Source of the DNA: Anaerolineales bacterium
GTDB lineage: Bacteria; Chloroflexota; Anaerolineae; Anaerolineales; Anaerolineaceae
Direction: 5' to 3'
Assembly (NCBI GenBank): GCA_020060485.1
Contig: JAGVAB010000086.1
Coordinates: 1 to 14,564, forward strand
Length of the DNA stretch: 14,564 nucleotides
Shown in pieces: positions 3,787-14,125 of the stretch; the first letter of the stretch is position 1; every line of letters begins with the position of its first letter. A model generated the notes under the pieces. The model had not been told where the DNA came from. It searched no databases and worked only from the letters and a program-made list of their open reading frames with translations. Both the position numbers and the translations under genes were made by a program.

Positions 3787-5441
3787 CCCTCGTTGGTAAA
3801 TGGCACCCAGGCCAGAATGCTGGTACCTTTGCCCGGTTCGGTGCTGATGTCCACATCCCCACCCACGTTGCGGGCGCGGGTTTGCATGTTGGGCAGACCG
3901 TGCCCCAGGGTGAACTTGACCTTGTTCAGGTCAAAGCCGCGCCCATCATCACGGATCTCCAGCAGCGCCCGTTCAGCAGTGGCCCACAACGATACATCGA
4001 CATTCATCGACTGGGCATGTTTGGCCACATTGGCCAATGCTTCCTGGCAAATGTGGAACAAGACACTCGCCCGTTCGCCCGACAAGCTGATCAGCTCTTC
4101 ACTGGGCGTATGCAGAACAGCGTTGACCAGGGTATTGGCGCGAAATTCGATCACCAGCCGCTTGATGCCCTGGATCAAGTCCTCATCATGCAACTGGTGC
4201 GGACGCAGGTCGAGGATGTAGGCGCGGATATCGCGGATGGTGCTGTTCAGATCATTGACCGCCTGTTCAATTCGAGCCCGGGCGCGCTGCGGTTCTGTTT
4301 CCATCAACAAACGGGAGTGTTCCAGGATCAGGCCGACAGCATAGATCGACTGGATGACGCCGTCATGCAGATCCATGCCAATGCGTTCACGCTCTTCCAG
4401 CACGGCAATGCGCCGTTGCTGCAAATTGAGCTGCACATTCTCGATGGCCGTACCCACCCAGGAGCTGAGTGCCGAAAGGAATTGCATCTCCATTTCATCC
4501 AGCGAGCGATGGTCACAGGTGGACACACACAATACCCCCAGTACCCCCTGCCGGCCGTTCAACGGACAGCAGGCCACCTGGTACAACCCGCTGGTCAGAG
4601 CTTCTTTGGACAGCCCGTGGCCGTTGTTGGGTTGCAGCACCATGTGCTGGGAATGACCGAGCTCGGCTGTAGAGCCCACAATCCCCTCGCCGAATTTAAA
4701 GCCTTGTTTCTTCCACAGATGATCCACGGCCGTGCCGCGGTGCCGCGCCAGACGCAGCACCTTGCTATCGCCCTGGCGCAAGTAGATCTCCCCCACATCC
4801 AGCTTGAGGTAGTCCATCACCTGTTGCAGCGAGCTATCCAGAATCTGGTCAATATCTGCGGAGGAAGCCAGTGTGCCCACCAATTCATTGAGCAAAGCCA
4901 GGTTCTCGTTGCGGCGGGTGAGAACGCGGTCGCGCTGGACAAGCTGTTTGTACAGGCGGGTATTGGCAATGGCAATGGCGGCGTAAGCGGCCAGGGTCTC
5001 GATCACCTGCTGGTCATCAAGGCTGAAACTTTCGGTTTCGCTTTTATCTGTCAGGTAGATTTGCCCCAACTGGTTCTTCCCCAGTTGGATGGGCACCGCC
5101 AGGAAGGAATTGATGGCCGGGCGGCAGTCACGCATTTCCACAATGTCCACCGGCTGCCGGTTATTGAGAAAAGTGTTGATCACACACTCATCCTGCTGGG
5201 AACGTTCCAGACGGCAGATATCACCATTCACCATGCCAACCGGGATGAATTGTTCCAGCTTGTTGTTTTCGCCAATCACCCCCACTGCCGCAAAATTGGC
5301 GCCGGCCTGTTTGCAGGCTTCGACACCAATCCGCTCCAGCAAGGTTTCCAGGGGAATATCCTTGATACGCACCAGGTCCAGGCTGGCCCGGTGCAGCGCC
5401 ACCAAACGTTCTTCCAGTTGTTCGCGTGTGAGAATGACCAT
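3783..5441 (-). CDS. Soluble GAF-GAF sensor histidine kinase of the NarL-partner (HisKA_3) type
   Basis: The 552-residue protein has no membrane segment or signal peptide, so it should sense a cytoplasmic signal. Two GAF domains occupy about residues 30-162 and 190-338, joined by a helical linker; their ligand is unknown. The dimerisation and phosphoacceptor helix follows at 345-380 with ERIGMDLHDGVIQS, phospho-acceptor His359. The HATPase domain shows the N box CQEALANVAKHA (Asn471), the G1 box RDDGRGFD (497-504) and GHGLPNMQTRA (513-523). This is the HisKA_3 subfamily, which normally phosphorylates NarL/FixJ-type DNA-binding regulators. No such regulator is encoded in the window, so it is an orphan here. 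It is co-transcribed with the downstream methyltransferase through a 4-bp overlap. The ATG at 5441 is used because the N-terminal helix starts there; no strong ribosome-binding site is seen. Confidence 0.92.
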   Translation of the reverse strand: MVILTREQLEERLVALHRASLDLVRIKDIPLETLLERIGVEACKQAGANFAAVGVIGENNKLEQFIPVGMVNGDICRLERSQQDECVINTFLNNRQPVDIVEMRDCRPAINSFLAVPIQLGKNQLGQIYLTDKSETESFSLDDQQVIETLAAYAAIAIANTRLYKQLVQRDRVLTRRNENLALLNELVGTLASSADIDQILDSSLQQVMDYLKLDVGEIYLRQGDSKVLRLARHRGTAVDHLWKKQGFKFGEGIVGSTAELGHSQHMVLQPNNGHGLSKEALTSGLYQVACCPLNGRQGVLGVLCVSTCDHRSLDEMEMQFLSALSSWVGTAIENVQLNLQQRRIAVLEERERIGMDLHDGVIQSIYAVGLILEHSRLLMETEPQRARARIEQAVNDLNSTIRDIRAYILDLRPHQLHDEDLIQGIKRLVIEFRANTLVNAVLHTPSEELISLSGERASVLFHICQEALANVAKHAQSMNVDVSLWATAERALLEIRDDGRGFDLNKVKFTLGHGLPNMQTRARNVGGDVDISTEPGKGTSILAWVPFTNEG

Positions 5442-5479
5442 ATACCACTATCTACCGAATTAAAATTTAACCCTGAATG

Positions 5480-5504
5480 CCTGTAACAAATACAGGTTAT
5501 TGTA
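5480..5504 (-). promoter_or_regulatory. Possible promoter and operator of the GAF kinase operon
   Basis: On the - strand a TACAAT box (5504-5499) is followed by an inverted repeat, CCTGTA-acaaa-TACAGG (5480-5496), that would cover the predicted start site. It lies about 40 bases upstream of the kinase ATG. The position suits an operator or a short 5' hairpin. No good -35 element is visible, so this is a weak call. Confidence 0.25.
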
Positions 5505-5694
5505 ATCATGGGTATTAAGATGTATTTTAGCATATATTTACCGGCCGAAAAAAATTCCTTTGCAGCCTGCTCTGTGGAATGCAATTTGCGCGGCCACCTC
5601 AGCAAACATCTCTTTCACGGCGATTCCCAGAGAACCCTCAAAATTGGTTGCCCATTAATCCAAAAATCTGCTATGCTCAGTAAAAGGAAATTTA

Positions 5695-5896
5695 CTGGCT
5701 GCCTGACAGTTTTGCATTAGCTCATTTCAAAAAAACAGATCAATCTGCCTCGCGAAGCCCGAGTGCTTTTCTCGGGCTGTGGCGATCTCCAAAACAGATA
5801 AGGAAGATTGCCTCAACGTGGCGAAAGCCTTAAAATAACCAAAAAGGATGTCCATTTCCGTCCCGTTTCGCAATGACGCTTAAAGCGTCAGGTGGC
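5695..5896. repeat. Left arm of a ~200-bp inverted repeat flanking the giant hybrid kinase gene
   Basis: This 202-bp stretch is an imperfect reverse complement of 11296-11496 along its full length. Exact shared blocks, in matching order, are cctgacagttttgcat (5702-5717 with 11474-11489), ctcgggctgtggc (5771-5783 with 11409-11421), ccaaaacaga (5789-5798 with 11392-11401), cccgtttcgcaa (5862-5873 with 11317-11328) and gtcaggtggc (5887-5896 with 11296-11305). It fills much of the 562-base gap between the two kinase genes. The rest of that gap (5505-5694, 5897-5990) shows no gene, RNA or clear promoter. Arm words resemble the repeats at 106-334, so the arm is probably a member of a dispersed intergenic family. 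Confidence 0.8.
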
Positions 5897-6003
5897 CAGG
5901 AAAATTTTACCCGGAATTAATCCACAAAACCCTTATTGCCCGCTAAACTAATGATTGGGGTTGTTGCTTTTTTGGGTAAAGTTTTCAGGGAAAGGAGTGC
6001 AAG

Positions 6004-9000
6004 GTGGGACTGCTTCCATATTTTCCAGCCATGGTTTCCGGGGCAATGTTTGCCATTGGCTTTTACCATCTGGCGTTGTTCTACAAGCGCTCTCGCTGCC
6101 CGCAATACCTTGCGTTTTCTGCCTTCAGTCTTTTTGCCGGCTTGTTCATGTTGTCCACAGCCGGCATTTCCGTCTCCGAGCAGCTTTTCCAGGTCATCTT
6201 CTGGCAGCGGATTGATGTCGTCGCCCAATCGTTGACCATTTTGGCGTTCCTGTTGTTCATCCATACCACCATTCCCACCCTTTCAAAAAAATGGGTTCTC
6301 TTTTTCAGTATCACCCTGGGCCTGTTCATCCTTGTGCAAATCCTCAATCCCCGAGGTCTGGTGTGGGATACAGAACACATCACCTTGCGCCGCATCAGCC
6401 GTATCTTCCTGCCAACCATATATATCCCTGGCGCCACCCCCGGCCCATTGATCAACCTGATCAGCTATTTTTCATTTTTCATTGGAGCTTATGTCAGCTT
6501 CGGTATCTGGAAATTCAAACAACGGACCTCGTTTCAGGAAGCATTGCCCTACCTCATCTCCATAACGTTGCTGATTCTGGCCGGTGTGCTTGACCTGTTG
6601 AAGTTCATGGATTTTTTTGCCGGTCTGCCCTACCTGATGGAATTTGCATTTTCCATCGTGGTTTTTCTGCTGTCATCGGCCACATCAATGGCAATCATCA
6701 ATGCCGCCGCAAATACAGCTGTTCTGGCCGACCAGAATTTGGAGCTCCAGAAAGCCAAGGCTATCTTGAAAGACAACGTGGAAGCAAGCGCCGCCGAGAT
6801 ACGCCAACAACAGGAATATTTTCAATCCCTGTTTGAATACAGCCCGCTGGCCATCATCACACTGGATAACAACGAGAATATCGCCGCAGCCAATCCCGCT
6901 TTTTCCAAATTGTTCGGTTACGCCCATGATGAACTGATTGGCAAAAAACTGGACGAATTGATCTCATCTCCAGCCTTGCGTGATGAAACGCTGGAACTTA
7001 CCCGAAATGTGAAACAAGGACTTCCTGTGCAATTGATCACCCGCCGCATTCACAAGGACGGCCGCCAAATTCCAGTTGATGTGCATGGCGTACCGATCAT
7101 CATTGACGGCAAGACACAGGGTGCGTTGGGCATCTACCGGGATATCACAGAACGCCTGCATGCCGAAGCAGAACTGCGCCGCCAGAAATACCTGGAGCAG
7201 AAATATTTCGATGCCGCAGGCGTGATCCTGATGGCCTTGAATGACACCGGTGAAGTGCTGCGCATCAACCGCAAGGGCTGTCAATTGCTGGGCTTGAAAG
7301 AGAACGAGATCGTTGGCAAGAACTGGATTGAACATTTTATTCCTGAAGATGACTACATTACTATTCAAAAAATCTTCACAGAGGTTCTGGAAGGCAACCA
7401 GCAATCCTCTGAAGGTTTTGAAAATACAATTCTGACAGCCTCCGGCGAAAGGCGGCTGATCTCCTGGAATAGCACGGTTTTGATTGGGGAAGATAACAGG
7501 ATGACCCTCATAACCTCGGGTCGCGACATCACCGAGCAACGCCAGACTGAACTGGCCCTCAAAACCAACGAAGCCCGTTTTCGATCCCTGTTTGAGGACT
7601 CTCCCATCGCACTCTGGGAAGAAGATTTCTCAGCTCTCAAGAAACATTTTGACGATCTGAAGCAATCTGGCGTCACGGATTTCGCCGCCTATTTTGACCA
7701 AAACCCCCAGGAAGTGACCTTCTGCGCCAGCCTGGTGCGGGTCATCAATATCAACCGGGCCACCCAGCTTTTATACAAGGCTGAAACCAAAGACCTGATC
7801 TACAACGATCTGCAGCGCATCCTGGGGCCTGAATCACAGGAAGCCTTTAAACAGGAACTGATCGCCCTGGCAAATGGCAATCATCGCTTTACCCTGGAGA
7901 TCCGGCAGTACACTTTACAAGGGGAACTGATCGATGTGTTGATGCGGTTATCTGTGGCGCCAGACTACGAAGACAGTTGGGAGGAAGTATTCATCTCTGT
8001 GCAGGATATCACCGAGCGCAAGCAGGCAGAACGCTCTCTGGCTGAAAACGAAGCGCGCTTCCGCACGCTGGTTGGTGCTGTGCCGGATATGATCTTCCGC
8101 TTTGATACTACAGGCAAATTTGTGGACTATAAAAGCGCTGAAAGCGGCACCTATGTTCCGCCGGAAGTCTTTCTGGGGAAACATTATTCCGAAGTGCTGC
8201 CTCCAAACGTGGCGGCGCTGACCAAGGAAGCCCTTGAAAAGGGTGGTGCTGACAAGAAAACGCAGACATTCGAGTATCAACTGCCAAATGAAGCGGGCGG
8301 TCAGGATACATTTGAAGCCCGTATCATTACCAATGAAACTGGCGAAGCAGTGGGGCTTATTCGAGATGTGACCGAACAAAGAGCTGCAACAGTGTTACTC
8401 GGCAAGCGCGCCCAGGAACTGGCCACGGTGGCGGAAGTGGGCACGGCGGTATCAACGGTGCTGGATCCGGAAGAAATGCTGCAAAGCGTGGTGGAGTTGA
8501 CCAAGGAACGCTTTGGCCTGTACCATGCGCATGTGTTCCTGCTGGATGAGAGCGGCGAAACGCTGGTGCTGCGCTCCGGGGCAAGCGAGGTAGGGCGGCA
8601 GATGGTGGCCGAGAAGCGCTCAATCCCGCTGAACAACGAGCAATCGCTGGTGGCACGGGCTGCCCGCACGAGGCGGGGCGTAACGGTGAACGATGTGCGC
8701 AGCGACCCGGACTTCCTGCCGCACCCGCTGCTGCCGGAGACGCGTTCAGAACTGGCCGTGCCGCTGGTGGTGGGTGGTCAGGTGTTGGGGGTGCTGGACG
8801 TGCAGTCGGAGCAGGTTGGGCGGTTCACGGAAGAAGACATTCGCATCCAGGCCACGCTGGCTTCACAGGTGGCGGTGGCCTTGCAGAACGCAATGCAGTA
8901 TACAGCGTTAGGCGCTATCCGAAAACAACTGGACGAGGCATCGGACATTGCTGCACTGGCATACTGGGAATTAGATATTGCCACCTTCACTTTTCTGTTC

Positions 9001-11283
9001 AATGATGATTTATATGAGCGCATTTTGCACATTACGGTAGAAGAAGCTGGTGGATACTTAATGCCGGCGCAGAAGTTTGCATCAACCTATTTGCATCCAG
9101 ATGATGCGTCGTTGGTGGCAACTTTGACGCAGGCAGCCATAGAAACTGACGATCCCAATTATGAGAATTCTGCAGAAGTGCGTTATCTGTGTGGTGACGG
9201 CAAGGAACGCAATATTTTCATGCGTTTCAGAATCGCCAAGGATGCAGAAGGCAAAACCATTCGCACCTATGGAACCAATCAGGACATCACCGAGCGCAAG
9301 CGCATGGAAGAAAACCTGAAACAGGCCAAGGAAGCCGCTGAAATGGCGGCCAGTGCCAAGTCGGAATTCCTGGCGACCATGAGTCATGAGATCCGCACTC
9401 CAATGAACGGGGTGATCGGCATGACCGGCCTGCTGCTGGACACCCGGCTTACACCTGAACAAATGGAATATGTGGAAACCATCCGCATCAGCGGCGAAAG
9501 CCTGTTGACCATCATCAATGACATCCTCGACTTCTCCAAGATCGAATCCGGGCGCATGGAGCTGGAAGAGCAGCCTTTCAATCTGCGCTCCTGTATGGAA
9601 GACGCGCTGGATCTGCTCAGCGCCAAAGCCTTTACCAAGAAGCTGGAACTGCTGGGCAGCATCGACGCCGATGTCCCTGAATACATCCTGGGGGATGTCA
9701 CCCGGCTGCGACAAATCCTGGTCAATCTGATCGGCAATGCCGTCAAGTTCACCAGCCAGGGGGAGGTGGTGGCATCTGTGCATCAGGTGCCCGGCCAGAA
9801 AGACCGGCTGTTGTTCAAAGTACGGGACACCGGAATTGGTATTCCCGCGGATCGAATGGGCCGACTGTTTAAATCCTTTTCGCAGATCGATTCCTCCACC
9901 ACCCGTCATTTTGGCGGCACCGGTTTGGGATTGGCAATTTCCAAACAATTGGCAGAATTAATGGGTGGCAAGATGTGGGCCGAAAGTGAGCCAGGACAGG
10001 GATCCACCTTCCTGTTCGAGATCCAGGCCCCGGCTGTAGCCCTCGAGGAAGCCGAAGAACATAAAGTAATTGATGTGAGCCAGGTGCAGGGAAAACGGGT
10101 ACTGATCGTGGATGACAACCCCACCAACTGCCGCATTCTCGTGCAGCAATGCCGCAAATGGGGTCTGGAAGCGCAGGCGGTGCCAGGGGGCGAAGAGGCA
10201 CTGACCCTCATGAAACGAGAACCACCATTCGACCTGGGCATTCTGGATATGCAAATGCCCGGCATGGATGGCATAGACCTGGCTCTGGCCATCCGCTCCC
10301 TTGAAAACGGCGGCAACCTGCCTTTGATCATGTTAAGCTCGGTGGGCAAGCCCGAACAAAGAAAATCAGATCTGCAGGTTACCCGCTTCAAATCCTTTCT
10401 TTCCAAACCGGTCAAGCAGCTGCGCCTCTACCGCGCCATCCTCGAAGCCCTGAATGCCAGCGAGTGGCAGGGCGAGATGAAAGATGCCAGCGCAGACTTT
10501 GTGCTGGATCACGACCTCGGCAGCCGCAAACCACTGCGGATAATGGTGGCAGAAGACAACCCGGTCAACCAGAGACTTGCCCTGCGCGTGCTGGAGAAAC
10601 TGGGATTCCGGGCAGATGCTGTCGGCAACGGGCTGGAGGCCATCGAATCATTGGCCCGGCAATTGTATGATGTTATCTTTATGGATGTGCAAATGCCGGA
10701 GATGGATGGTCTGGAAGCCACCCGGCGTATCCGCCAGAATTTTGCCAAAGAAGACCAGCCTATGATCATCGCCATGACGGCCAACGCCATGACGGGGGAC
10801 CGCGAGCGCTGCATGGAAGCCGGCATGGACGCCTACATCAGCAAACCCATCCGCTTCGGCGAAATCCAGACCATTCTGGAACAATGCATACCCCTGCAGA
10901 CACAGCAAAACGACCAGGAGGAACAACCTCCTGAAGAACTGCAACAGCCTGCGCTGGATATGCACGCCTTGAACTCGCTAAAACAGGAAATGGGCGATGA
11001 GGTACTGGTTGAACTTGTCCAGCTTTACGTGGATGAATCCAAAGAAATTCTCATGGAGATCCAGAAAGCAGCCGATGCCCGGCAGGCAGATGCCTTGCGC
11101 TCGGCAGCGCATTCCCTTAAAGGCGCCAGCTTGAATATGAGCGCCCTGGCTCTGGCAAAAACCTGCGAGACCATCGAACAGAGCGCCCGTGAGAACAACC
11201 TGAACGATATGCAATCACTTGTGCAACTGGCAACGGATCAGCATGAAACAGCCTGCACTGCATTGCTGGCAGTGATTGAGTGA
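6004..11283 (+). CDS. Giant membrane-bound hybrid histidine kinase with complete phosphorelay (7TM-PAS5-GAF-HK-REC2-HPt)
   Basis: The 1759-residue sensor starts with about seven membrane helices (residues 8-232) and a coiled linker. Five PAS domains follow, each closed by a D-I/V-T-E-R/Q linker: about 273-385, 398-513, 525-674, 680-793 and 975-1100. A GAF domain (805-963) is inserted before the last PAS. HisKA has ATMSHEIRTPMNGVIGM with phospho-acceptor His1128. HATPase has Asn1245 (N box), DTGIGI (1275-1280) and GGTGLGLAI (1304-1312). Receiver 1 has D1370/D1371, phospho-Asp1415 and K1468. Receiver 2 has E1517/D1518, phospho-Asp1561 and K1614. The C-terminal HPt has AAHSLKGAS with His1703. 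All catalytic residues are present, so one chain can relay His-Asp-His, presumably to a separate regulator not found here. The GTG start has AAAGGAG (5991-5997) six bases upstream. The gene stands alone between inverted-repeat arms. Confidence 0.93.
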   Translation: MGLLPYFPAMVSGAMFAIGFYHLALFYKRSRCPQYLAFSAFSLFAGLFMLSTAGISVSEQLFQVIFWQRIDVVAQSLTILAFLLFIHTTIPTLSKKWVLFFSITLGLFILVQILNPRGLVWDTEHITLRRISRIFLPTIYIPGATPGPLINLISYFSFFIGAYVSFGIWKFKQRTSFQEALPYLISITLLILAGVLDLLKFMDFFAGLPYLMEFAFSIVVFLLSSATSMAIINAAANTAVLADQNLELQKAKAILKDNVEASAAEIRQQQEYFQSLFEYSPLAIITLDNNENIAAANPAFSKLFGYAHDELIGKKLDELISSPALRDETLELTRNVKQGLPVQLITRRIHKDGRQIPVDVHGVPIIIDGKTQGALGIYRDITERLHAEAELRRQKYLEQKYFDAAGVILMALNDTGEVLRINRKGCQLLGLKENEIVGKNWIEHFIPEDDYITIQKIFTEVLEGNQQSSEGFENTILTASGERRLISWNSTVLIGEDNRMTLITSGRDITEQRQTELALKTNEARFRSLFEDSPIALWEEDFSALKKHFDDLKQSGVTDFAAYFDQNPQEVTFCASLVRVININRATQLLYKAETKDLIYNDLQRILGPESQEAFKQELIALANGNHRFTLEIRQYTLQGELIDVLMRLSVAPDYEDSWEEVFISVQDITERKQAERSLAENEARFRTLVGAVPDMIFRFDTTGKFVDYKSAESGTYVPPEVFLGKHYSEVLPPNVAALTKEALEKGGADKKTQTFEYQLPNEAGGQDTFEARIITNETGEAVGLIRDVTEQRAATVLLGKRAQELATVAEVGTAVSTVLDPEEMLQSVVELTKERFGLYHAHVFLLDESGETLVLRSGASEVGRQMVAEKRSIPLNNEQSLVARAARTRRGVTVNDVRSDPDFLPHPLLPETRSELAVPLVVGGQVLGVLDVQSEQVGRFTEEDIRIQATLASQVAVALQNAMQYTALGAIRKQLDEASDIAALAYWELDIATFTFLFNDDLYERILHITVEEAGGYLMPAQKFASTYLHPDDASLVATLTQAAIETDDPNYENSAEVRYLCGDGKERNIFMRFRIAKDAEGKTIRTYGTNQDITERKRMEENLKQAKEAAEMAASAKSEFLATMSHEIRTPMNGVIGMTGLLLDTRLTPEQMEYVETIRISGESLLTIINDILDFSKIESGRMELEEQPFNLRSCMEDALDLLSAKAFTKKLELLGSIDADVPEYILGDVTRLRQILVNLIGNAVKFTSQGEVVASVHQVPGQKDRLLFKVRDTGIGIPADRMGRLFKSFSQIDSSTTRHFGGTGLGLAISKQLAELMGGKMWAESEPGQGSTFLFEIQAPAVALEEAEEHKVIDVSQVQGKRVLIVDDNPTNCRILVQQCRKWGLEAQAVPGGEEALTLMKREPPFDLGILDMQMPGMDGIDLALAIRSLENGGNLPLIMLSSVGKPEQRKSDLQVTRFKSFLSKPVKQLRLYRAILEALNASEWQGEMKDASADFVLDHDLGSRKPLRIMVAEDNPVNQRLALRVLEKLGFRADAVGNGLEAIESLARQLYDVIFMDVQMPEMDGLEATRRIRQNFAKEDQPMIIAMTANAMTGDRERCMEAGMDAYISKPIRFGEIQTILEQCIPLQTQQNDQEEQPPEELQQPALDMHALNSLKQEMGDEVLVELVQLYVDESKEILMEIQKAADARQADALRSAAHSLKGASLNMSALALAKTCETIEQSARENNLNDMQSLVQLATDQHETACTALLAVIE

Positions 11284-11295
11284 AAGACATCATTT

Positions 11296-11496
11296 GCCAC
11301 CTGACACTTTGTGTCTTTGCGAAACGGGGTGAAAAAATGCAATTTTTGGGGTGCCTTCCAGCGTATTCGCCCCGTTGAAGCAATCCCCCTCTCTGTTTTG
11401 GCCCTGCGGCCACAGCCCGAGGAAAGCACCCGGTTTCACATTGACAGATCAATTTGTTTATTGAAACGAGCTTATGCAAAACTGTCAGGTAGCCAG
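11296..11496. repeat. Right arm of the inverted repeat flanking the giant hybrid kinase gene
   Basis: This 201-bp stretch begins 12 bases after the kinase stop codon and is the inverted partner of 5695-5896. The longest exact block is atgcaaaactgtcagg (11474-11489). A weak hairpin, gacac-ttt-gtgtc (11303-11315) followed by ttt, lies inside it and might terminate the kinase transcript. No other gene or RNA is seen between 11284 and 11556. Confidence 0.8.
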
Positions 11497-11550
11497 AGAT
11501 ATATCCAGGTAACCAAACCCTATCCACGATATGCGCAATCCGCAGTTTGC

Positions 11551-11588
11551 TAAAAGGCCAGCGGCGGGCAAATTTGCCCGCCGCTGGC
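11551..11588 (-). terminator. Terminator of the Nramp operon: 32-bp perfect palindrome
   Basis: The stretch 11557-11588 is a perfect palindrome (gccagcggcgggcaaa and its exact reverse complement). On the - strand it is followed by CTTTTA (11556-11551). It lies 20 bases past the stop codon of the Nramp gene. On the + strand no T run follows, so it appears to act for the - strand operon only. Confidence 0.85.
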
Positions 11589-11608
11589 GTGTGTGCGATC
11601 TCAGTATG

Positions 11609-12847
11609 TCAAAAAGCGAAAACTAGCAAGGCCAGGGTAATCACACTGATCAAACCCGTTAAACTGACTGCAAAGACATTTTGCAGCTTGCGATTCACCC
11701 ATTCCCCCATCAAGCGTTTGTCATTGGCCAGTTTGATCACCAGCACCAGCAATACCGGCAGCAAGATGGCGTTCAAGGATTGGGAGAAAACCATGATCTT
11801 GAACAAGGGAATGCTGGGAATGAAAACCACCAGCACACTGACAACGATCATAATGGCGTACAATCCAAAAAAGAATGGGGCATCGCTGCGCCGCTGGTTC
11901 AAACCGCGTTCCCAGCCAAAGGCTTCACATACCGCATAGGTAGTAGACAGGGGCAGCACCGAGGCTGCCAGCAAGGATGCCCCCAGCAATCCGGCGGCAA
12001 AGAGGTATTTTGCGCCTTCGCCGGCAATGGGCAGCAGCGCCCGGGCTGCTTCTTCAGCCGAGTCCACGGCAATACCATGCACAAAGAGCGTGGCGGCTGT
12101 GCAGATTACGATAAAGGCCGAAATCACATTTCCCCAGATGGCGCCGCTAACCACATCCACCCGGGTCAGCCGATAGGCTTTGGCGTCCACGCCCTTGTCC
12201 ACCACCGAGGCCTGCATATAAAAGATGCCCCAGGGCGTGATGGTAGTACCGATGGTCGCCAAAACAGCCAGAATATAATCCGGGTCGGATTGAAAAGAAG
12301 GCCGCAGCGTGCTTTGCAGGATCTCTTCCCACGGCGGTTTGATCACAAAAGCCGAGATGACATAGCTTAATGCGGAGAGACACAACACCAGGAGGATCTT
12401 TTCCACATAGCGGTAAGAGCCTTGCAGAACGGTGAAGCTGATCAACAAGGCAGCAACAGGCACAGCGATGAAACGACTGACTCCCAGCAGTTCGGCGCTG
12501 GCGGCAATGCCGGCAAACTGGGCAATGGTGGTGCCCATGTTAGCCGCCAGCAGGCATAGCATGGCAAAGAAGGTGATCTTGACCCCAAAGCGTTCGCGGA
12601 TCAGATCGGCAGTGCCTTTGCCAGTCACGGCACCCATGCGGGCTGCCATGGCCTGCACCACCACTTCACCGATGGTAATCACCAGCAGCAGCCACAGGAA
12701 CTGATACCCATATTTGGAGCCCGCCATGGAATACGTGGCAATGCCGGGGGCGTCATTATCGGCGCTGGCGGTGATCAAACCCGGACCCAATACAGCCAGG
12801 TAGACCCACAACCGCGCAAACATGGTTTTGAATGCTTTCTTCTGCAT
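11609..12847 (-). CDS. Nramp-family divalent metal carrier with altered metal-site motifs
   Basis: The 412-residue protein has about 11 membrane helices and clear Nramp landmarks: GPGLITASADNDAPGIATYS in helix 1, then GYQFLWLLLVITIGEVVVQ, ANMGTTIAQFAGIAAS in helix 3, and FSQSLNAILLPVLLV in helix 10. Classical Mn/Fe Nramp carriers have DPGN in helix 1 and MPHN in helix 6. Here the aligned residues are DAPG (32-35) and TPWG (204-207), so the helix-1 Asp remains but the Asn and the metal-ligating Met are lost. This places it in a divergent branch, and Mg2+ or another ion may replace Mn2+/Fe2+ (inference). It is the second gene of an operon, 18 bases after the MgtE_N-CBS gene, with AAGGAA as ribosome-binding site ahead of ATG 12847. 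Length is normal. It is followed by a strong terminator. Confidence 0.88.
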   Translation of the reverse strand: MQKKAFKTMFARLWVYLAVLGPGLITASADNDAPGIATYSMAGSKYGYQFLWLLLVITIGEVVVQAMAARMGAVTGKGTADLIRERFGVKITFFAMLCLLAANMGTTIAQFAGIAASAELLGVSRFIAVPVAALLISFTVLQGSYRYVEKILLVLCLSALSYVISAFVIKPPWEEILQSTLRPSFQSDPDYILAVLATIGTTITPWGIFYMQASVVDKGVDAKAYRLTRVDVVSGAIWGNVISAFIVICTAATLFVHGIAVDSAEEAARALLPIAGEGAKYLFAAGLLGASLLAASVLPLSTTYAVCEAFGWERGLNQRRSDAPFFFGLYAIMIVVSVLVVFIPSIPLFKIMVFSQSLNAILLPVLLVLVIKLANDKRLMGEWVNRKLQNVFAVSLTGLISVITLALLVFAF

Positions 12848-12865
12848 AGCGGATTTCCTTGGCTT

Positions 12866-14125
12866 TTAATAGAAGCGCGGCAAGCGTTTCTTCCAGGTGG
12901 TGGGCAGCACTGCATCCACAGCGTCATCCACGGTGACAATGCCGAGCATTTCCTCGGTTTCTTCTTTGACAACCGGGACGGCCAGAAGGTCATACTTGGC
13001 CACCAGATACGCCACTTCCTGCTGCGGGGTCAGGGGGCCAACACAGATCGGGCGGGTATCGAGCCATTCATCCAGGCTTTCATCCGGCGCAGCCATCACA
13101 AGGTCGCGCAGCGTGATCACCCCGTGCAGTTTCCAGGCGGGGTCAACCACATAGACGTAATACATCTCCTCATCTTCCTGGGCATCATCTGAGCTGCGCA
13201 AGAAACTTAAGGCTTCGCTGGCCGTCAGTCCTGAAGGGATCCAGGCAAATTCGGTGGTCATGATCCCGCCAGCCGAATCCTCCGGGAAGTCCAGCAAGCT
13301 GCGCATTTCCTTTGCTTCATCGGCTTCCATCAAATCCAGCAATTGATGGCTGGTTTCTTCGGGCAGATCAGCCAGCAAGTCGGCAGCTTCATCAGGGTCC
13401 ATTTCTTCCAGGATATCGGCGGCGCGCTCCGAATCAAGCTGTGAGAGAATGGCCACCTGGGTCTTGGACGGGCTTTCTTCCAGGGTGTCAGCCAGCGTTT
13501 CATTGTCCATCTGCGCCAGCAGCGCCTGGCCGGTATTGCGGTCCAGATCATTGAGGATGGTGGCGATGTCCACCGCGGGCAATTTGCTGATCTTCTCGCG
13601 GGAGATGCTCAAACGGATCGGGTCACCTTCCTGCAAATAGGCGATATCCTGCCAGGGAACTACGGCTTTGGGCAGCGGTCGCTTCAACCATTTGGAAATT
13701 CCCACCGCTGCAGATTCAATCCCCAGGCGGCGCAATAATCCCCGTCCGCTGACATCCACACCGATGACACAATACTTGTCTTTGACGCGAGCCAGCTGCA
13801 GATCATTGACGCGCACCACCCGGCGGCCTTCAATATCCACAATCTGATGGTCCATCATCTGGTCTGCCAGCCACAATTCCTGTCCATTGGGCTGATAGGT
13901 TTTGACCTCATCTTTGGGTACGTTGAGCACGATCGAGGGGTACAGACTGGTGATCTGGTCTGCACAGATGAATCTGTCCTCGCGGTCTCCATCTTTTAAT
14001 ACCAGCGCCAGAAGATGCGGAAAAGGCTTTTCAACGTAATTTGCAAGTACGTCCTTGCAACGGCCAATGGGTTGGCCCCACGAGTCCCAAACTCGCTGTC
14101 CTTCAAGTTGACTTACATACAGCAT
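12866..14125 (-). CDS. PRC-barrel / MgtE_N / CBS-pair protein, an MgtE sensor domain without the channel
   Basis: The 419-residue soluble protein has an N-terminal PRC-barrel-like region (about 1-75: VSQLEGQRVWDSWGQPIG) and a second similar segment (about 92-170: DIEGRRVVRVNDLQLARV). An acidic, leucine-rich MgtE_N superhelix follows (about 180-282), with repeats such as DSERAADILEEMDPDEAADL. The MgtE signature SAGGIMTTEFAWIP (284-297) leads into two CBS domains (about 288-345 and 355-408) with GVITLRDLV and GIVTVDDAVDAV. In MgtE these parts bind Mg2+ and gate the channel, but here the chain ends at 419 with no membrane domain. The downstream Nramp carrier is the likely partner, so a regulatory subunit sensing cytoplasmic divalent ions is inferred. 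The ATG at 14125 has a strong AGGAGGAA site (14135-14128). Confidence 0.88.
   Translation of the reverse strand: MLYVSQLEGQRVWDSWGQPIGRCKDVLANYVEKPFPHLLALVLKDGDREDRFICADQITSLYPSIVLNVPKDEVKTYQPNGQELWLADQMMDHQIVDIEGRRVVRVNDLQLARVKDKYCVIGVDVSGRGLLRRLGIESAAVGISKWLKRPLPKAVVPWQDIAYLQEGDPIRLSISREKISKLPAVDIATILNDLDRNTGQALLAQMDNETLADTLEESPSKTQVAILSQLDSERAADILEEMDPDEAADLLADLPEETSHQLLDLMEADEAKEMRSLLDFPEDSAGGIMTTEFAWIPSGLTASEALSFLRSSDDAQEDEEMYYVYVVDPAWKLHGVITLRDLVMAAPDESLDEWLDTRPICVGPLTPQQEVAYLVAKYDLLAVPVVKEETEEMLGIVTVDDAVDAVLPTTWKKRLPRFY

Follow-up and report, generated by a model that had tools for sequence, protein, structure and literature searches.

The two inverted arms on either side of a sensor kinase gene in the window (the whole stretch of DNA analysed, 14,564 nucleotides from an Anaerolineales bacterium) are best explained, with a probability of about 0.9, as two old, non-autonomous MITEs of IS4 type, which sit in neighbouring gaps and bracket the kinase gene by chance. 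The left arm is a complete MITE-like element of 205 bp at 5695-5899 (plus orientation) and the right arm one of 204 bp at 11293-11496 (minus orientation). Between them lies only one annotatable gene, at 6004-11283 on the plus strand, which encodes a hybrid sensor histidine kinase of 1759 amino acids with matches to PAS, GAF, HisKA, HATPase_c, two receiver and Hpt domains.

The preliminary description had reported arms of about 200 bp that match in inverted orientation, and this was borne out when the left region was locally aligned with the right region in reverse complement: 158 of 210 columns were identical (75%) and the score was 138, whereas 500 dinucleotide shuffles reached at most 31. 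The identical blocks of 10-16 bases that it had listed were recovered too, as the exact blocks of at least 9 bases common to both arms measure 16, 13, 12, 10 and 10 bases; the arms have diverged by 25% and share no exact run of more than 16 bases. The single enclosed gene was also found as described, but the spacing of the right arm had to be corrected: with the element boundaries defined by the terminal inverted repeats, 9 bases and not 12 separate the right element from the stop codon of the kinase gene (11281-11283).

Each arm is bounded on both sides by terminal inverted repeats of its own and is thus a short element complete in itself, rather than just one terminus of something larger. 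In the left arm, the terminal repeats are CTGGCTGCCTGACAGTTT / AAAGCGTCAGGTGGCCAG, with the left-type end facing outward at 5695 and the right-type end at 5899. In the right arm, the left-type end, which also faces outward, is at 11496 and the right-type end, which is degenerate, is at 11293. Elements of this kind have the ends CTRGCYRCCTGACAGTTT / AAAGYGTCAGGTRGCYAG. Mismatches to the end pattern number 0 and 1 in the left arm and 2 and 0 in the right arm. Neither arm, at about 205 bp each, contains a transposase gene, and both are predicted to fold as single strands into hairpins (z -3.2 for the left arm and -3.1 for the right), with none of 200 shuffles as good in either case. The window thus contains two copies. 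The available part of the text of PMC3733652 describes bacterial IS-derived MITEs as elements of 70-300 bp with terminal inverted repeats and without coding capacity. The arms resemble them in size, terminal inverted repeats, lack of a gene, intergenic position and hairpin folding, and their relatives resemble them in their target duplications. Measured against that portion of the source, nothing essential differs, the interior of the arms apparently being another dispersed palindrome.

In other genomes, single elements with these ends adjoin other open reading frames, and many of them carry target duplications, which supports the earlier suggestion that two members of a dispersed intergenic family had landed on either side of the gene. 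The 15-base end word GCYRCCTGACAGTTT gave 83 matches in 36 of 396 genomes, compared with 6 for the reversed control; many genomes had only one match, and some of these single matches are probably due to chance. The loci examined (L166-L215, some places twice) cover a part of the 83 matches and, together with L159, yielded 20 candidate elements outside the window. Fifteen of the 20, with lengths of 114-254 bp and from 9 genomes that are probably Anaerolineae, were taken into the profiles and duplication counts. Those left out were L166 (718 bp, weak), L172 (two mismatches), the 1481-bp row of L177, the transposase-bearing L185 and its deleted relative L193. Several copies can occur in one genome, and the 15 elements are therefore not all independent, five having come from G015 and three from G126.

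An abutting 9-bp direct repeat was perfect in six of the 15 elements and matched at 8 of 9 positions in four more, and duplications had played no part in choosing the elements. The remaining five matched at 1, 2, 5, 6 and 6 of the 9 positions directly beside the ends, and an automatic search found a shifted repeat of 7-8 bases in three of them. Ten of the 15 elements were clear of any reading frame of at least 100 residues, while a predicted frame overlapped the element in the other five, which may reflect extension of the frame. In several of the 15, a reading frame ends 9-60 bases away, which is also the case for the right arm.

The two ends of these elements differ regularly. In 10 of the 12 elements that were aligned with the arms, the left end reads ...GACAGTTT and the right end (A)AGTGTC or a close variant, L186 and L174 being the two without this asymmetry; both window arms show it, with the left type outward. 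End profiles built from the 15 elements were scored against the window and 60 random windows. The best four sites in the window were 33.3, 29.7, 19.5 and 14.5 for the left-end profile (next 6.2, random best 9.9) and 24.9, 22.3, 22.1 and 21.4 for the right-end profile (next 8.7, random best 18.3). For both profiles these four sites were the four ends of the arms, in a test that is partly circular, as the loci had been fetched with the left-end word of the window and right ends had been accepted by a similar pattern. With the whole arms as DNA queries, no match reached E 0.001 in sets of 11, 48 and 396 genomes (the 11 lying within the 48), and the best in six further genomes was E 0.06; such blanks carry little weight, as they came without a genome known to match. 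Of the arm sequences used as queries, the shorter end word alone gave matches. Exact words from the arm blocks had no match in viral_contigs or genome_contigs, and the left arm had no match among plasmids.

The likely source of the transposase is indicated by longer elements in other genomes. L185 contains an element of 1188 bp (142-1329) with the same ends as the arms and a transposase of 363 residues, which was assigned to the IS4 family (NF033591, 159 bits with a cut-off of 152) and matched Pfam DDE_Tnp_1; no clear target duplication was found at this element. A 55% relative lies between similar ends in L216 (393-1579), and a 36% relative lies between diverged ends in L217. The arms thus share their ends with elements that encode an IS4-family transposase, and differ from such insertion sequences in having no transposase gene. 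At L193 (1498-2032), an element of 535 bp has kept both ends and retains its transposase gene in pieces only, and is an internally deleted insertion sequence, apparently intermediate between IS and MITE. In G291, G204 and G314 (L202-L208 and L211), contigs stop within elements that have such ends, some 110-140 bp in, which suggests recent multi-copy insertion sequences.

Based on these comparisons, the ends of the gene-free arms would have been recognised in trans, by a transposase encoded in an IS4-family insertion sequence that shares their terminal repeats. The two MITEs would have been inserted separately, each with a 9-bp target duplication, into the intergenic gaps that flank a resident kinase gene, and their opposite orientation would be happenstance. 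Any two insertions in neighbouring gaps would have one gene between them, and inverted pairs should make up half of the cases. We infer that mobilisation occurred in trans, that the right arm was inserted separately and that the bracketing is due to chance. The last of these is argued for by a target duplication that belongs to the left arm itself, the poor match of the outer flanks (5/9), the 25% divergence of the arms and the codon usage of the kinase gene, which is like that of its neighbours.

The presumed left copy of the left-arm duplication, GGAAATTTA at 5686-5694, matches the presumed right copy, GAAAATTTT at 5900-5908, at 7 of 9 positions, with a P of about 0.004 under local composition. 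The left arm thus has, in degenerate form, its own target duplication, which suggests a separate insertion. The flanks of the right arm match at 1 of 9 positions, and the outer flanks of the pair at 5 of 9. The preliminary description had also considered a gene-sized mobile cassette. In its present form this would be a composite, non-autonomous transposon, TIME-like though outside the Tn3 family, in which the outermost MITE ends are used jointly by a transposase acting in trans and the 5.3-kb kinase gene travels as cargo. The left-type ends of both arms do face outward, and TIMEs (Tn3-derived inverted-repeat miniature elements with 38-bp Tn3-type ends and duplications of 5 or 6 bp) are able, according to the part of PMC4133298 available, to mobilise DNA between two copies. 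The arms are likewise short elements, two copies of which could enclose a gene, but they differ from TIMEs as that part presents them in having IS4-type ends and a duplication length of 9 bp, and a joint transposition of the arms is unsupported. The outermost ends of the pair lack the duplication that a single composite insertion would leave (5/9, with decay possible), whereas the left arm has a better one of its own. Each arm is complete in itself, none of the seven window proteins scanned was a transposase or recombinase, and E 1.6 was the best that the L185 transposase reached against the window. Taken with the divergence between the arms, this makes a composite transposon improbable. If true, it would mean that a sensor gene has been packaged for transfer by two non-coding elements.

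The kinase gene itself is probably resident and not cargo, as its codon usage agrees with that of the other six genes (r 0.93). On the other side, a full-length match to the kinase was absent, and only parts of it were present, among the matches listed for 48 genomes of the presumed order, with at most 10 candidates scored per genome (the presumed class and order are those of genomes G003 and G281). Relatives of the window proteins point to Chloroflexota, probably Anaerolineae, and one strain (P0001, on a 26-kb contig) has a kinase of 1759 amino acids that is 97% identical over the part searched. The neighbouring genes had no syntenic match in the 80 loci retrieved by the kinase, and no kinase match was found in 20 short Nramp/MgtE loci, the best 20. 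Since kinase matches were only partial or absent in the loci compared, there was no empty site for comparison. With neither a syntenic kinase locus nor an empty site found, there is room left for the composite transposon, which is not favoured.

The right arm sits between two convergent genes, the kinase gene and an Nramp gene. The Nramp gene and an MgtE_N/CBS gene (11609-14125) form a conserved pair, which 19 of the 20 best loci in the presumed class also have, L098 being the exception, and gene order beyond Nramp varied among the three relatives examined. At the other end of the window, a gene for the bacterial small signal recognition particle RNA was found at 1397-1496 on the plus strand (Rfam RF00169, 56.6 bits). 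The convergent arrangement, with the right arm so close behind the kinase stop codon, and the hairpins predicted for both arms could mean that the pair is kept for control or termination of the kinase and the convergent Nramp transcription. We consider this very unlikely, as the hairpins follow from the terminal repeats themselves and copies at other loci are about as far from their adjacent reading frames. In addition, a search for terminator-like sites gave none in 5440-6010 and a single one in 11200-11640, which is outside the arm, at 11623-11635.

RecA-type exchange needs longer identity than the arms offer, for which 16 bases are short. An invertible segment, in which recombination between the related, inverted arms would flip the 5.8-kb kinase segment, one of the possibilities in the preliminary description, can be practically dismissed, since at 75% identity the arms are a poor recombination substrate, neither near-identical arms nor recombinase sites with a recombinase (0/7 proteins) were found, and the arms are independently explained as transposable elements.

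The two MITEs seem to contain a second repeat. Palindromes of the form TCATTGCGA...GAAGCAATC were found in 9 of 48 genomes of the presumed order, with none for the reversed control, and reached 112 matches in G126, 58 in G290 and 24 in G375. They often occur in inverted pairs, 16-25 bp apart, and in three elements of G126 (L159, L178 and L214) they lie inside the terminal repeats. An nhmmer model of the palindrome, built from 25 pairs from other loci, gave weak matches to the arms (E 0.017 for the left and 0.14 for the right); judged from sequence resemblance, it is likely that the arms share this palindrome as their interior. The same model identified a family member without MITE ends at 105-170 in the window (E 3.5e-7), and a stretch of 44 bp resembling it is present in G401. 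The related words noted earlier at 106-334 are thus real in so far as 105-170 belongs to the palindrome family, but the four best terminal-repeat sites all lie elsewhere, and 106-334 was rejected as a third copy of the arms, having only the palindrome parts in common with them. Like the REPs in the available portion of PMC3733652, the palindromes are dispersed, have a high copy number in some genomes and are often in inverted pairs; they differ in that some of those in G126 sit within IS4-type ends. No literature on dispersed repeats in Anaerolineae was found, and among the listed literature matches to the palindrome letters none was, by its title, apparently about this repeat. One paper from the literature on MITEs and Chloroflexi (PMC12542641) concerns, in the part of its text available, contigs for dioxane degradation.

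To summarise, an eye-catching structure can be explained as ordinary mobile DNA. For this MITE family, in genomes that are probably Anaerolineae, the ends, the duplication length and the likely partner transposase can now be given, and with these, further genes bracketed by inverted repeats in this group should be quickly recognisable.
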